64,000 nt of DNA, taken from an uncultured Prevotellaceae bacterium. Its GTDB lineage: Bacteria; Bacteroidota; Bacteroidia; Bacteroidales; Muribaculaceae. The position numbers and the translations under genes are program-made. The stretch covers positions 62,001 through 126,000 of the forward strand of contig ONGE01000004.1 in the NCBI GenBank assembly GCA_900317325.1. Reading direction: 5' to 3'. Position 1 is the stretch's first letter, and every line of letters starts with the position of its first letter. A model generated the notes under the pieces. It was not told the DNA's origin, ran no database searches, and worked only from the letters and a program-made list of their open reading frames with translations. Shown piece after piece: positions 5,487 through 8,982 of this stretch.

Positions 5487-6038
5487 TTATTCTTTGTCCG
5501 TTTCTTTCAGGACATAGATGTCAGGAAGATTGCGGGCCAGGCCGTCGAGATCCAGACCGTAACCCAGGATGAACTTGCAGGGAATCTCAAAGCCTACATA
5601 TTCCGGACCCTTGCCCACGGTGAGCGCATCGGGCTTGAAGAGCAGCGAGACCATTTTCACGCTCTTGGGATTATGTTTGGCCAGTTCCTTGCGCAGCTGG
5701 GCGGCAGTGACGCCACTGTCGATGATGTCCTCGACGATGAGCACGTTGCGGCCCGTGATGTCCTCGCTCAGGCCCATCAGCTGCTTCACGCTGCCTGTCG
5801 ATTCCATGCCCTCGTAGGACTTGAAACGGATGAATGTAATCTCGGAATCATGCAGGTTGCACGCGCGGAACAAGTCGGCAGCAAAGATGAAGGAACCGTT
5901 GAGTACACACAGGAACAGTGGATTCTCATTGGCATAGTCACGCTTGATTTCCTGGGCAAGGCGATGCACTTGCTTGGCAATTTCTTCACGTCTGATGTAA
6001 GGCTCAAACGTCAGGCCCTGATAAGTTACTTCTTCCAT
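5487..6038 (-). CDS. hpt: Hypoxanthine phosphoribosyltransferase
   Basis: This 183-residue purine-salvage enzyme transfers phosphoribose from PRPP to hypoxanthine or guanine. The PRPP-binding signature VLIVEDIIDSG is complete. LNGSFIFAADL precedes it, and the C-terminal CKFILGYGLDLDGLARNLP segment contains the purine-contacting residues. It is first in a minus-strand cluster with adk and yihY. A minus-strand TACCTTTG about 20 bases upstream of the ATG (6059-6066) is the likely -7 box. Confidence 0.95.
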   Translation of the reverse strand: MEEVTYQGLTFEPYIRREEIAKQVHRLAQEIKRDYANENPLFLCVLNGSFIFAADLFRACNLHDSEITFIRFKSYEGMESTGSVKQLMGLSEDITGRNVLIVEDIIDSGVTAAQLRKELAKHNPKSVKMVSLLFKPDALTVGKGPEYVGFEIPCKFILGYGLDLDGLARNLPDIYVLKETDKE

Positions 6039-6126: not shown

Positions 6127-6277
6127 AAAGCGAGCCGGAGGCTCGCAATACTCCGACAGACCGCCCGTCCTTGCCATCCTGGCCGTTGCGGGCGCCGCTA
6201 TGACGGGCCTGCTGTGGCCGTGCCGTTTGGCGTGGTTGTCGCGGTGGTCGAGGTATTGCGAGCCTCCGGCTCGCTTT
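6127..6277. repeat. Paired REP palindrome (BIME-like), copy 1, 3' side of the RAYT gene
   Basis: Two 25-bp arms (6127-6151 and 6253-6277) are exact reverse complements. Each arm is itself a small hairpin, GCGAGCC-gga-GGCTCGC. The 100-bp middle shares blocks with copy 2, such as the CCGCCCGTCC, GTTGCGGGCG and GTCGCGGTGGTCGAG segments. The element ends 10 bases from the stop of the transposase gene. Confidence 0.9.
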
Positions 6278-6287
6278 TGGTGCGGCA

Positions 6288-7250
6288 TCATTGCCGTGTG
6301 GCGATGGCCCGTGCCAGGGCGTTCATCTTGCGGCAGCATTCAGCGGTTAGCGCCTGGTAGTCGTTGCGGTGCTCAAATGGCGACACCAGCAGCACCTTGC
6401 CGGCAACACATGCTTCAAAGAGTTTCCCGCCAGGCTTGGACATGGCATCAAAGCCGTTGTTGCAGATGAGAATCACGGGGATTCCCGCTTCGAGAGCCCG
6501 GTTCATGATGGCTCTTTCTCCAGGGCTGATGGCCGGCGACACAAGCACAGCCTCCTGGGCCAGCAGTCGATCACCTTCGCGGGCTATTTCCTCATCGCTC
6601 ATGCGTCGTGAGCAGTAAACCTGAATGATTGATGGGTGCTGCAGGAGTTGATGGTTGCCCATGGCACTCACAGCATTACCAGCGACCGTGAGCTGGTTAG
6701 TCACCGTGAAAAAAGCATGGTGGCTTCGCTTTAACCACAAGCGTCGCGGGTTTTCGTTCAGGTAGGCTGTCCAACGGTCCAGTTGCCCCTTGCCACGCAG
6801 CAGCTTGTCGTTGTAACCCTGTTCCCACAACGGGACATCGGCTCCGAGTTCCCTCGCTGCCCTGTTGCAGCCGGTCTTGAAACCATTGATGACTTTCCCA
6901 AGATGGACTGGCAACGGCTGGGTGACAAACAGGATGCCATGGATGTGGTCGGGCATGACGGCCAGCGCCAGCATTCTGATGTGCGGGTAATAGCGGGGAA
7001 TGCCCAGCCATTCGGCTTTTACTCTCTCGCCCAATGGCGAGAGGCTCACCCATGGTTGCTGGTGTTCACTATCGGGCCCGCAGAGCGTCCCTAGGGTAGG
7101 GCGCCTCTCCTTTACTGTCAAGGTAATCAGGTAGATGTCCCTGTCCAGGTAGTTGTGCCCAGCCATTCGACGCTTCATTGAGGGTGAGGCGGGCACGTCG
7201 GGATGGTTATGGGCCCATTGCTTGCGTCCCTCGTTGCGCTTGTCGTCCAT
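6288..7250 (-). CDS. REP-associated tyrosine transposase (RAYT) with an extra C-terminal Rossmann-like domain
   Basis: The 320-residue protein has an IS200-like Y1 transposase half (about 1-180). It shows the RDIYLITLTV strand, the HUH metal site as DHIHG (His102, His104) in VMPDHIHGILFVT, and a probable catalytic Tyr163 in AYLNENPRR, the usual RAYT context. Residues about 200-320 are not part of a standard RAYT. They show VLVSPAISPGERAIMNRA, then GIPVILICNNGFDAM, then KLFEACVAGKVLLVSP, resembling the nucleotide-binding fold of the DprA/Smf and LOG families (inferred by eye). The gene is bracketed tightly by two large REP-type palindromes, as expected of RAYTs that move or maintain REP sequences. 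It has no recognisable ribosome-binding site. Transposase half firm; C-terminal assignment tentative. Confidence 0.85.
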   Translation of the reverse strand: MDDKRNEGRKQWAHNHPDVPASPSMKRRMAGHNYLDRDIYLITLTVKERRPTLGTLCGPDSEHQQPWVSLSPLGERVKAEWLGIPRYYPHIRMLALAVMPDHIHGILFVTQPLPVHLGKVINGFKTGCNRAARELGADVPLWEQGYNDKLLRGKGQLDRWTAYLNENPRRLWLKRSHHAFFTVTNQLTVAGNAVSAMGNHQLLQHPSIIQVYCSRRMSDEEIAREGDRLLAQEAVLVSPAISPGERAIMNRALEAGIPVILICNNGFDAMSKPGGKLFEACVAGKVLLVSPFEHRNDYQALTAECCRKMNALARAIATRQ

Positions 7251-7264
7251 TGCTTGGAGGTTTT

Positions 7265-7429
7265 AAAGCGAGCCGGAGGCTCGCAATACCCCGACGGGGC
7301 CGCCCGTCCTGGTCATTCTGGCCGTCCTTGCCGTTGCGGGCGTCGCTATCGACAGCACATCCACAGCCGTCCCGTTGTGGCTGTCCCGCTTGTCGCGGTG
7401 GTCGAGGTATTGCGAGCCTCCGGCTCGCT
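7265..7429. repeat. Paired REP palindrome (BIME-like), copy 2, 5' side of the RAYT gene
   Basis: The left arm at 7265-7289 is identical to the left arm of copy 1. The right arm at 7407-7429 matches it in inverse over 23 bp. Each arm holds the GCGAGCC/GGCTCGC mini-hairpin. The middle is related to copy 1 but has indels, so the two are diverged members of one family. It lies 14 bases upstream of the transposase ATG and 11 bases from the stop of the neighbouring transporter gene. Confidence 0.9.
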
Positions 7430-7440
7430 GTTTGGGTTGG

Positions 7441-8982
7441 TTACTTGGCGACTTTCTCCAGGCGCTTCATCATGGCGAACATGAAGATGGCGGCGATGAG
7501 GCAAACGCCCAGGAAGACGCTCCAGCATACCCACAAGGGCACCTGGCCCCACAGGGCGCCGCCCACGAGCACGAGCTGGTTGCCCAGCGCGGTCGATACG
7601 AACCAGCCACCCATCATGGCTCCCTTGTACTTGGGAGGAGCCACCTTGCTGACGAACGAAATGCCCATCGGCGAGAGCAACAGCTCACCGAATGTCAGCA
7701 CCAGATAGACACTGATGAGCAGGTTGGGCGTCACGTCGGCCACGTGTTGACCCACGAGGTTGCCATCGGCATCAGGTGCCATCTGCGGCATGGGCAGACC
7801 GACCGAGGCGAACGCCATGATGGCATAGGCAATGGCGGCGACCACCATACCGTAGGCGATCTTGCGCGGAGCCGAGGGCTCCTTGCCCTTGCTGGCCAGC
7901 CAGCTGAAGATGGCCATCGATACTGGCGTCAGTGCAACGACATAGAACGGGTTGAACTGCTGGAAAATCGGTGCAGCGATATTGATGCTGCCGGTGGTGC
8001 GGGTGTACTTGTAGTACAGGATGCCCAGCGCAGCCAGGATAATAGCGCCCGAGATGCCTTTAGCCTTGGCTGTTTTGCTCTGGAAGAGCGAGAATCCGGC
8101 ATAGACGATGAAGATGACCAATACCAGGTTCCACACGTCAAAGGCCATGCTCTCGAGTCCGCTCGACGTGTTGGCGGTGAACTCGTCGGCAAAGAAGGTG
8201 AGCGACAAACCGTTCTGGTGGAATGCCATCCAGAAGAATACCACCACGGCGAACACGAGACACAGGGCGATGATGCGGGCCTTGGTGTCCTCCTTGCTCA
8301 ACTCGGGCTCCTTGACGGTGTTGTCCTCGGCCTTGACAGCGGCCTTCTTGCCGCCCTCGGCGTGACGGAAGGTGTTGCGGAAGGCGTAGTAGATGGCAAT
8401 CGACAGTACCAGCGAAACGCAGGCCACGGCAAACGAGAAGTGGTAAGCATCGTTTGACGAGAAGCCCCAAACGGTCTCGGCATACTCCTTGATCTTCACG
8501 GCAGCCGTCGGTGCAAACAGGGCGCCGATGTTGATGGCCATGTAGAAAATCGAGAAACCGGCGTCGCGCTTGGCGGCATAGCGGGTGTCGTCATACAAAT
8601 TGCCCACCATCACCTGCAGGTTGCCCTTGAACAGGCCTGTACCCAGGCCGATGAGCAGTAGTGCTCCGATCATCACAATCAGTGCAAAGGTGTTGCCGCC
8701 CAATGGAACGGCCAGGAGCAGATAGCCCAGGAACATGATGATGATACCGATGGTCACCATCTTGCCGAAGCCGAATTTGTCGGCCATCCATCCACCGATG
8801 AGCGGGAGGAAATACACCACCATCAGGAACGAACTGTAGATGAAGCCGGCGACAGCCGGGGAGAGGCCATAGTTGGCCCTGAGGAAGAGGGCGAACACGG
8901 CAATCATCGTGTAGTAGCCGAAGCGCTCGCCCGTGTTGGCCAGTGCCAACGCGAAAAGTCCTTTAGGTTGTCCTTCAAACAT
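7441..8982 (-). CDS. POT-family proton-dependent oligopeptide transporter
   Basis: This 513-residue inner-membrane protein of the PTR2/POT family has about 14 hydrophobic segments. It begins with MFEGQPKGLFALALANTGERFGYY (the GERFGYY proton-coupling region in helix 1), continues with GGWMADKFGFGKMV, and contains the family signature FSIFYMAINIGALFAP. Later parts include FFWMAFHQNGLSLTFFA and GELLLSPMGISFVSKVAP. Members import di- and tripeptides with protons. A second POT gene lies directly upstream on the same strand, so the two may be co-transcribed. The paired REP element begins within 12 bases of the stop. Confidence 0.92.
   Translation of the reverse strand: MFEGQPKGLFALALANTGERFGYYTMIAVFALFLRANYGLSPAVAGFIYSSFLMVVYFLPLIGGWMADKFGFGKMVTIGIIIMFLGYLLLAVPLGGNTFALIVMIGALLLIGLGTGLFKGNLQVMVGNLYDDTRYAAKRDAGFSIFYMAINIGALFAPTAAVKIKEYAETVWGFSSNDAYHFSFAVACVSLVLSIAIYYAFRNTFRHAEGGKKAAVKAEDNTVKEPELSKEDTKARIIALCLVFAVVVFFWMAFHQNGLSLTFFADEFTANTSSGLESMAFDVWNLVLVIFIVYAGFSLFQSKTAKAKGISGAIILAALGILYYKYTRTTGSINIAAPIFQQFNPFYVVALTPVSMAIFSWLASKGKEPSAPRKIAYGMVVAAIAYAIMAFASVGLPMPQMAPDADGNLVGQHVADVTPNLLISVYLVLTFGELLLSPMGISFVSKVAPPKYKGAMMGGWFVSTALGNQLVLVGGALWGQVPLWVCWSVFLGVCLIAAIFMFAMMKRLEKVAK

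Follow-up and report, generated by a model that had tools for sequence, protein, structure and literature searches.

A RAYT-like gene that is tightly bracketed by two pairs of REP palindromes raises the question of whether gene and palindromes form a mobile unit, or a unit that stays at a single site and is altered there. We addressed this question at such a locus in the window (the whole 64 kb stretch of DNA that was analysed), comparing it with the rest of its own genome and with genomes of the same genus and order.

A RAYT-type gene between two inverted REP pairs

Two palindromes at 6127–6277 and 7265–7429 were confirmed to have the identical 25-nt outer arms (AAAGCGAGCCGGAGGCTCGCAATAC) that an earlier note had described, and to be separated by 10 and 14 nt, respectively, from the stop and start codons of a 320-aa ORF on the minus strand (6288–7250). 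The sequence and an inverted-repeat search both agree with the note's description of the arrangement as a RAYT-type HUH gene between two inverted REP pairs. The features of the locus and its neighbours are as follows.

5487–6038, minus strand: hpt-like phosphoribosyltransferase gene, the downstream neighbour (Pfam PF00156, E 2.9e-24)
6127–6277, no strand: downstream REP pair (REPIN/BIME), past the RAYT stop codon (inverted repeat I2, 31-nt arms, 94% complementary)
6130–6151, minus strand: REP 1, GTATT followed by a GCGAGCC-TCC-GGCTCGC hairpin (core search)
6253–6274, plus strand: REP 2 (core search)
6288–7250, minus strand: RAYT-like HUH/Y1 gene, 320 aa, with a fused C-terminal domain, stop codon included (ORF)
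6291–6704, minus strand: C-terminal DprA-like domain, residues 183–320 (predicted fold, PADLOC PsyrA match)
6705–7250, minus strand: N-terminal HUH/Y1 part, residues 1–182 (HxH at 102 and 104, candidate catalytic Tyr 163)
7265–7429, no strand: upstream REP pair (REPIN/BIME), ahead of the RAYT start codon (inverted repeat I3, 29-nt arms, 97% complementary)
7268–7289, minus strand: REP 3, its hairpin ending 17 nt ahead of the RAYT start codon
7407–7428, plus strand: REP 4 (core search)
7441–8982, minus strand: POT-family transporter gene, the upstream neighbour (Pfam PF00854, E 2.2e-47)

In each REP, GTATT precedes a hairpin with a stem of 7 bp (GCGAGCC, a 3-nt loop, GGCTCGC), and the paired arms found by the inverted-repeat search are 29–31 nt long and 93–97% complementary. 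The 17-nt hairpin core is present at four places in the window; when up to three mismatches were allowed on both strands there were 8 matches, where 0.24 would be expected and none of 100 shuffles gave more than 2. Folding as single-stranded DNA gave z-scores of -8.4 for the downstream pair and -7.3 for the upstream pair, with 0/200 shuffles as good for each, and in the best folds the two REPs of one pair are bound to each other instead of each folding into a small hairpin. Other origins were considered and rejected: the sole Rfam match to a known structured RNA had an E-value of 0.066 and 25.6 bits, the gathering score being 268, the best PHROGs match, bearing on phage origin, had an E-value of 0.4, and plasmid origin was represented by one weak match of 47% coverage.

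The arrangement is shared to varying degrees by the 18 orthologous loci described below. Two hairpins are found on both sides of the gene in 10/18 (upstream in 15/18, downstream in 11/18), and the distance from the last upstream hairpin to the RAYT start is 17 nt in 12/18 and either 16 or 17 nt in 14/18. This last hairpin, which is separated from the start codon by 7251–7267 in the window, is perhaps a regulatory hairpin in the RAYT leader.

The earlier note expected the gene to be found among HUH/RAYT profile matches, and this was so only in part. It matched NCBIfam NF047646 (REP_Tyr_transpos) with an E-value of 1.2e-9, but the score of 38.2 bits lies under the curated cut-off of 80, and the match to Pfam Y1_Tnp (PF01797; E 0.016) was likewise sub-threshold, at 15.8 against a cut-off of 23. 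H102, H104, Y163, N167 and P168 are invariant across 26 aligned genus sequences; these residues and W142 are common to the window protein and E. coli RayT, and Y163 is aligned with Y115 of the latter, the residue that has been mutated as catalytic (PMC8266576). The full-length structural model is weak (pLDDT 61), and its Foldseek matches 2ec2, 2f4f and 4er8 are IS200 transposases and, in the case of 4er8 (E 1.9e-3), a RAYT-REP complex. As judged by alignment, the N-terminal half is an HUH/Y1 core in which both the HxH and the tyrosine residues are intact. The median dN/dS of the RAYT is 0.14 (34 of 153 pairs having a usable dS), indicating that the gene is under purifying selection and is therefore maintained rather than decaying.

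A pattern search of 101 genomes bore out the proposal that the arm recurs in the own genome and in relatives. With no more than one mismatch, GTAKTGCGAGCCNNNGGCTCG was found 14 times in the own genome (reversed control, 0), four copies being at the window locus, one at a second RAYT gene (C32) and nine elsewhere. Four of these nine off-site copies form a direct array, four are solitary, and one (C27) is accompanied, within 400 bp, by two further REP-like hairpins that point the same way. An inverted partner was sought for each of the nine and none was found, so the genome-wide family of paired copies that the note envisaged was not recovered: the off-site copies are few, and single or in direct array. 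The four-REP array has a period of 48–49 bp and lies between a tRNA-Pro gene and a DNA polymerase A gene (PF00476; L002:1501–1668, contig C12). Across the 101 genomes, GTAKTGCGAGCCNNNGGCTCG with one mismatch allowed was present in 34, all of the same genus, and the reversed control gave 0. Other RAYTs of the genus differ in their surroundings. One (L025) has a different hairpin, GCGAGACTGACGCTCGC, and at some, such as L029, hairpins were not evident by eye. A tandem GTATTGCGGGCGGCAGCCC array was also observed downstream of a RAYT paralogue with 50% identity in G033 (L032).

Genomes carrying the orthologue tend to carry REPs elsewhere. Off-site T-loop REPs were counted by hand in 17/18 genomes with an orthologue and 16/83 without (101 genomes, kinship ignored); within the near clade, defined by hpt at least 83% identical, the corresponding figures were 17/18 and 11/22 (Fisher p 0.004, kinship again ignored). 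For one genome (G133) two of the three REPs counted lie at the transporter end, which leaves its class unaffected. Stem pairing is kept at 97.8% across 26 distinct hairpins, where the maximum of 1000 shuffles was 97.3%, and four double changes were seen in stems against a shuffle mean of 0.9 and a maximum of 4 (1000 shuffles); the changes include C-G to G-C and G-C to A-T. On this comparative evidence, compensatory changes maintain the hairpins. The REP head at the locus is GTAT, not GT[AG]G. It is often preceded by GTCG at these loci; the CGTC-tagged repeats of PMC3733652 were considered and set aside, being reported without a transposase in the available text of that paper.

A predicted DprA-like half and the spread of the fusion

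Residues 183–320 of the protein matched no Pfam family. When they were modelled alone from seven sequences, a pLDDT of 82 and a pTM of 0.80 were obtained, and the top 14 chains in a Foldseek search were all DprA, from three species, or the DprA-like ShosA (E 5.3e-5 to 1.1e-2; TM by query 0.63–0.71), the next in rank being a CMP N-glycosidase with an E-value of 0.07. The PADLOC model PsyrA matched residues 197–305 (E 6.3e-4). We conclude that residues 183–320 are predicted to adopt the DprA Rossmann fold. When 16 Bacteroidales DprAs were compared with the RAYT profile by hhalign, no C-terminal match was obtained, so that the kinship with DprA is distant and is visible mainly in the predicted fold. 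Pfam PF02481 (DprA) was not matched by the window protein, and was matched by 1/26 genus sequences at an E-value of 0.23. The DprA fold serves in ssDNA binding and RecA loading during transformation, and an ordinary DprA is encoded separately in the own genome (C14).

The own genome carries four fused genes, at C25 (the window gene), C32, C40 and C17, the best paralogue being 49% identical to the window RAYT. The protein was present at an E-value of 1e-3 or lower in 60/101 genomes from the genus and order, a set that includes the own genome. Among 295 genomes drawn from the order, 18 gave a profile match at 1e-20 or lower, and in 11 of these (own included, seven family codes) the match extended at least to profile position 298, with inner stops in the best match of two of the 11. 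We scanned nine fused-gene loci from seven genomes of other genera for hairpins with perfect stems of 6–9 bp, over approximately 260 nt per side, and found a GTAK-headed hairpin at only one, L131, on its upstream side only. As for the own-genome paralogues, that at C40 has one unrelated hairpin and that at C17 none, while a pair lies upstream of that at C32, a paralogue at which a GTAG head is found. Since the loci of other genera, C40 and C17 mostly have no such hairpins, the fusion is more widespread than its association with REPs.

One address and its several states

Orthologues with 74–81% identity were found in 18/101 genomes, and in all 18 the RAYT adjoins the same POT transporter gene, with orientation conserved. 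This is at odds with the suggestion of the earlier note that the unit is mobile or self-propagating, in the sense of reaching new sites. The hpt gene is next in 15/18; two genomes (G009 and G021) have a different gene next to the RAYT, and in a third (G123) the contig ends just past the RAYT and hpt is on a separate contig.

Sites that lack the RAYT, which the note had proposed to look for, do occur. The site was examined in 41 genomes, 18 with an orthologue and 23 without, and it can be seen that there are several states: the RAYT is present in 18, a solo REP pair in eight (G019, G020, G055, G058, G059, G122, G126 and G137, the second hairpin of G058 being imperfect and read by eye), a single REP in two (G056 and G113) and no REP in five (G006, G033, G035, G052 and G131), and in the remaining eight the neighbours are apart. 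A ninth solo pair is found in G133, at the transporter end of a rearranged site where transporter and hpt are not adjacent. In this genome (L121), and in G021 (L021) and G009 (L023), a gene other than hpt follows the REP pair or RAYT at the transporter end; on the sequence comparison, all three have rearrangement breakpoints near the REP pair. The transporter-hpt gap of G035 (L077:1010–1078) contains a different long inverted repeat, beginning GGGACACGGGGACGG, instead of REPs, and this repeat was present in none of the other 176 fetched loci.

On the transporter and hpt trees, genomes with a filled site are mixed with those that have a solo pair. The RAYT-bearing genomes do show some clustering, with 22 (transporter) and 6 (hpt) of 500 shuffles as low, and the presence of the gene requires 7–8 changes of state on the two trees, where gain and loss are indistinguishable. 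The simplest source of a solo pair is recombination between the two similar REP pairs with loss of the gene; alternatively, the solo pair is a target of insertion. These observations suggest loss of hairpin-bounded genes at one and the same address, and perhaps also their replacement there.

The two flanking pairs also resemble each other. At 10 of the 18 loci, the other eight being excluded because fewer than two hairpins per side fitted the pattern, the identity of upstream and downstream REP pairs was 0.77 within loci and 0.62 between loci, and a within-locus identity as high was reached in 1 of 100,000 permutations, although the own partner was the best match in only 5/10 rows. Inspection by eye showed that in G053 the shared stretch extends into the sequence preceding the pair, and that the downstream and upstream spacers of G026 are reverse complements of each other. 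As far as these identities show, homogenisation acts between the upstream and downstream REP pairs of the same genome, and gene conversion or REP-directed copying could lie behind this.

Divergence at the site was examined for the closest RAYT-bearing pair, the own genome (G000) and G025, for which dS is 0.19 for adk, 0.13 for hpt and 0.25 for the transporter, and 0.83 for the RAYT. In 60-nt steps, their identity is at least 0.90 along the transporter, except for one step of 0.68, falls directly past the transporter stop, varies from 0.58 to 0.98 across the REP pairs and RAYT, and is again 0.95 directly past the last REP. The adk, hpt and transporter data group G000 with G025, a grouping that the RAYT data reject (AU test, p 0.0146); conversely, the RAYT data group G000 with G129 at 100/100, which the adk, hpt and transporter data reject. 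The first of these groupings was named from the other genes, whereas G000 with G129, and G044 with G127, were named after the RAYT tree had been seen. The opposite relation of divergences is found for G036 and G037, where the RAYT dS of 0.31 is under those of adk (0.57), hpt (0.69) and the transporter (0.46). Over all, the RAYT distance at 4-fold sites exceeds all three flanks in 88/120 genome pairs and is below all in three, an excess that is compatible with faster mutation as well as with repeated exchange.

Among RAYT-bearing genomes, distances correlate with r values of 0.46 for adk and hpt, 0.36 for hpt and RAYT, 0.28 for transporter and RAYT, and 0.26 for hpt and transporter. This order would fit extra shuffling across the REP pairs, although the differences are small. 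The notion that the REP pairs are special points of exchange was dropped when its control failed, since even the adjoining adk and hpt correlate only at 0.46. The POT transporter itself falls into two strongly separated groups, approximately 90–97% and 72–77% identical to the window copy, despite hpt being mostly more than 90% identical; the transporter may therefore have been exchanged too. The low correlations and the split transporter indicate that recombination is general in the genus, so that exchange need not be driven by the RAYT. Taken as a sequence comparison, these data suggest allele exchange at a fixed address, with faster mutation as the alternative.

A vertical, domesticated RAYT that is inherited with its neighbours, has a high mutation rate and is sometimes deleted between the repeats would account for some of this, and we regard it as possible though not favoured. 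RAYTs have been described as domesticated, vertically inherited transposases (PMC8049555), those of gammaproteobacteria diverge faster than their neighbours, and repeated local replication has been proposed as the cause of their faster mutation (PMC2817692). The common site of all 18 orthologues and the greater RAYT distance in 88 of the 120 pairs are in keeping with such inheritance; however, the RAYT data reject the grouping of G000 with G025 that the adk, hpt and transporter trees support, and a RAYT dS under that of every neighbour in G036 and G037 is not expected of a uniformly faster locus.

The generality of recombination in the genus, as seen in the low distance correlations and the split transporter, also leaves room for ordinary RecA recombination between species, in which RAYT and REPs are passive and the REP pairs act mainly as terminators or mRNA hairpins. 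This explanation, to which we give a similar minority chance, is helped by another inverted repeat in the same gap in 5/5 REP-free genomes (by eye), whereas the concerted REP pairs, the kept stem pairing and the link between RAYT and off-site REPs all point to a functional RAYT-REP pair. Hairpins on both sides of an HUH/Y1 gene would further be expected of a classic IS200-like mobile element with the REP pairs as its ends. An ordinary element of this type was rejected, as all 18 orthologues occupy one address and no own-genome copy is more than 49% identical, and we consider it highly improbable.

Proposed mechanism and relation to known systems

The account that we think probable is that the locus is a variant RAYT/REP (REPtron-like) unit, in which an HUH/Y1 core with a DprA-like domain occupies a fixed site and is lost or exchanged between REP pairs. 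The RAYTs of E. coli, Stenotrophomonas and Marinomonas bind single-stranded REP but not its inverse, and cleave beside the REP via a 5′-phosphotyrosine, the head tetranucleotide setting the cleavage site in one of them (PMC8266576). By analogy, the window protein would bind REP hairpins on ssDNA via the GTAT head and the hairpin, with AT or AA, rather than CT, as the cleavage sites predicted by the rule given in PMC8266576. It would nick next to the REP via a 5′-phosphotyrosine bond, the ends could be rejoined, and such nicking and rejoining might occasionally copy REPs to other places. The DprA-like half, again by analogy, would hold ssDNA and may pass it to RecA. The flanking pairs are direct repeats that resemble each other, which would allow recombination between them to remove the gene and leave a solo pair. 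For the same reason, an allele of another species could take the place of the RAYT at this site, the points of exchange lying inside the REP pairs or close to them.

It is conceivable, but in our view unlikely, that the RAYT promotes its own exchange, REP nicking on ssDNA combining with RecA loading by the DprA-like half so that the REP-bounded tract is preferentially exchanged between species or deleted; the ssDNA might come, for instance, from DNA taken up by transformation. If this were true, the REP pairs would be boundaries of targeted allele exchange and would be homogenised by that exchange, and the RAYT would stay mobile while its address never changes.

Returning to the variant RAYT/REP unit, it has long been puzzling that RAYTs outpace their neighbours in divergence (PMC2817692), and the filled, solo and REP-free alleles, the concerted pairs and the discordant RAYT genealogy now make fast mutation and REP-bounded exchange testable against each other. 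By analogy with the known systems, the fusion would join a putative hairpin nickase to an ssDNA-binding and RecA-loading fold, a hint that REP processing could feed recombination. We found no report of a RAYT-DprA fusion in a search of open papers, subscription papers being outside its scope; the same search, whose terms named neither subject, turned up no account of a solo REP pair as one allele of a RAYT site and none of RAYT exchange bounded by REPs.

REP-associated Y1 genes have already been reported in Bacteroidetes, as TnpA-Y1 subclasses 2.4 and 2.6 (PMC6006769). These resemble the window unit in their hosts and in having REP or REP-like structures around the gene, and differ from the window protein in their NHxH motifs and their median lengths of 194 and 179 aa. 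Subclass 2.3 is closer in size, with a median of 325 aa and a long C-terminal domain, but has NHYH and YVDLNP motifs, insertions in the core and, in the available text of that paper, no REPs; its hosts are Chromatiales and Alteromonadales (PMC6006769). DprA, ShosA and PsyrA are alike in the predicted fold of residues 183–320, and PsyrA also in its profile match, whereas in the window protein this domain is fused to an HUH/Y1 core, and the Bacteroidales DprA profile is unmatched. The REPINs of Pseudomonas are, as here, RAYT-linked inverted REP doublets (PMC3116915, PMC8049555); unlike them, the window doublets are located beside the RAYT itself, and copies elsewhere in the own genome are unpaired.

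The RAYT/TnpA-REP REPtrons (groups 2 and 3, subclasses 2.2 and 2.5) have in common with the window unit the HUH/Y1 core with DH[L/I]H, W and Y...NP motifs (PMC2817692, PMC6006769). In both, the gene is surrounded by inverted REPs, further REP copies occur elsewhere and orthologues share one site, and both diverge faster than their neighbours, as described for the REP-flanked RAYTs of gammaproteobacteria, which in addition coevolve with their REPs (PMC2817692). The window RAYT differs in its 320 aa with a DprA-like half, against REPtron medians of 165 and 151 aa (PMC6006769), in its GTAT rather than GT[AG]G head, and in having 14 REP copies in its own genome, where REPtron genomes usually have more than 100 (PMC2817692). 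Compared with REPtrons as described in these sources, the window unit is further set apart by its Bacteroidales host, its solo REP pairs and its apparent exchange at the same site.
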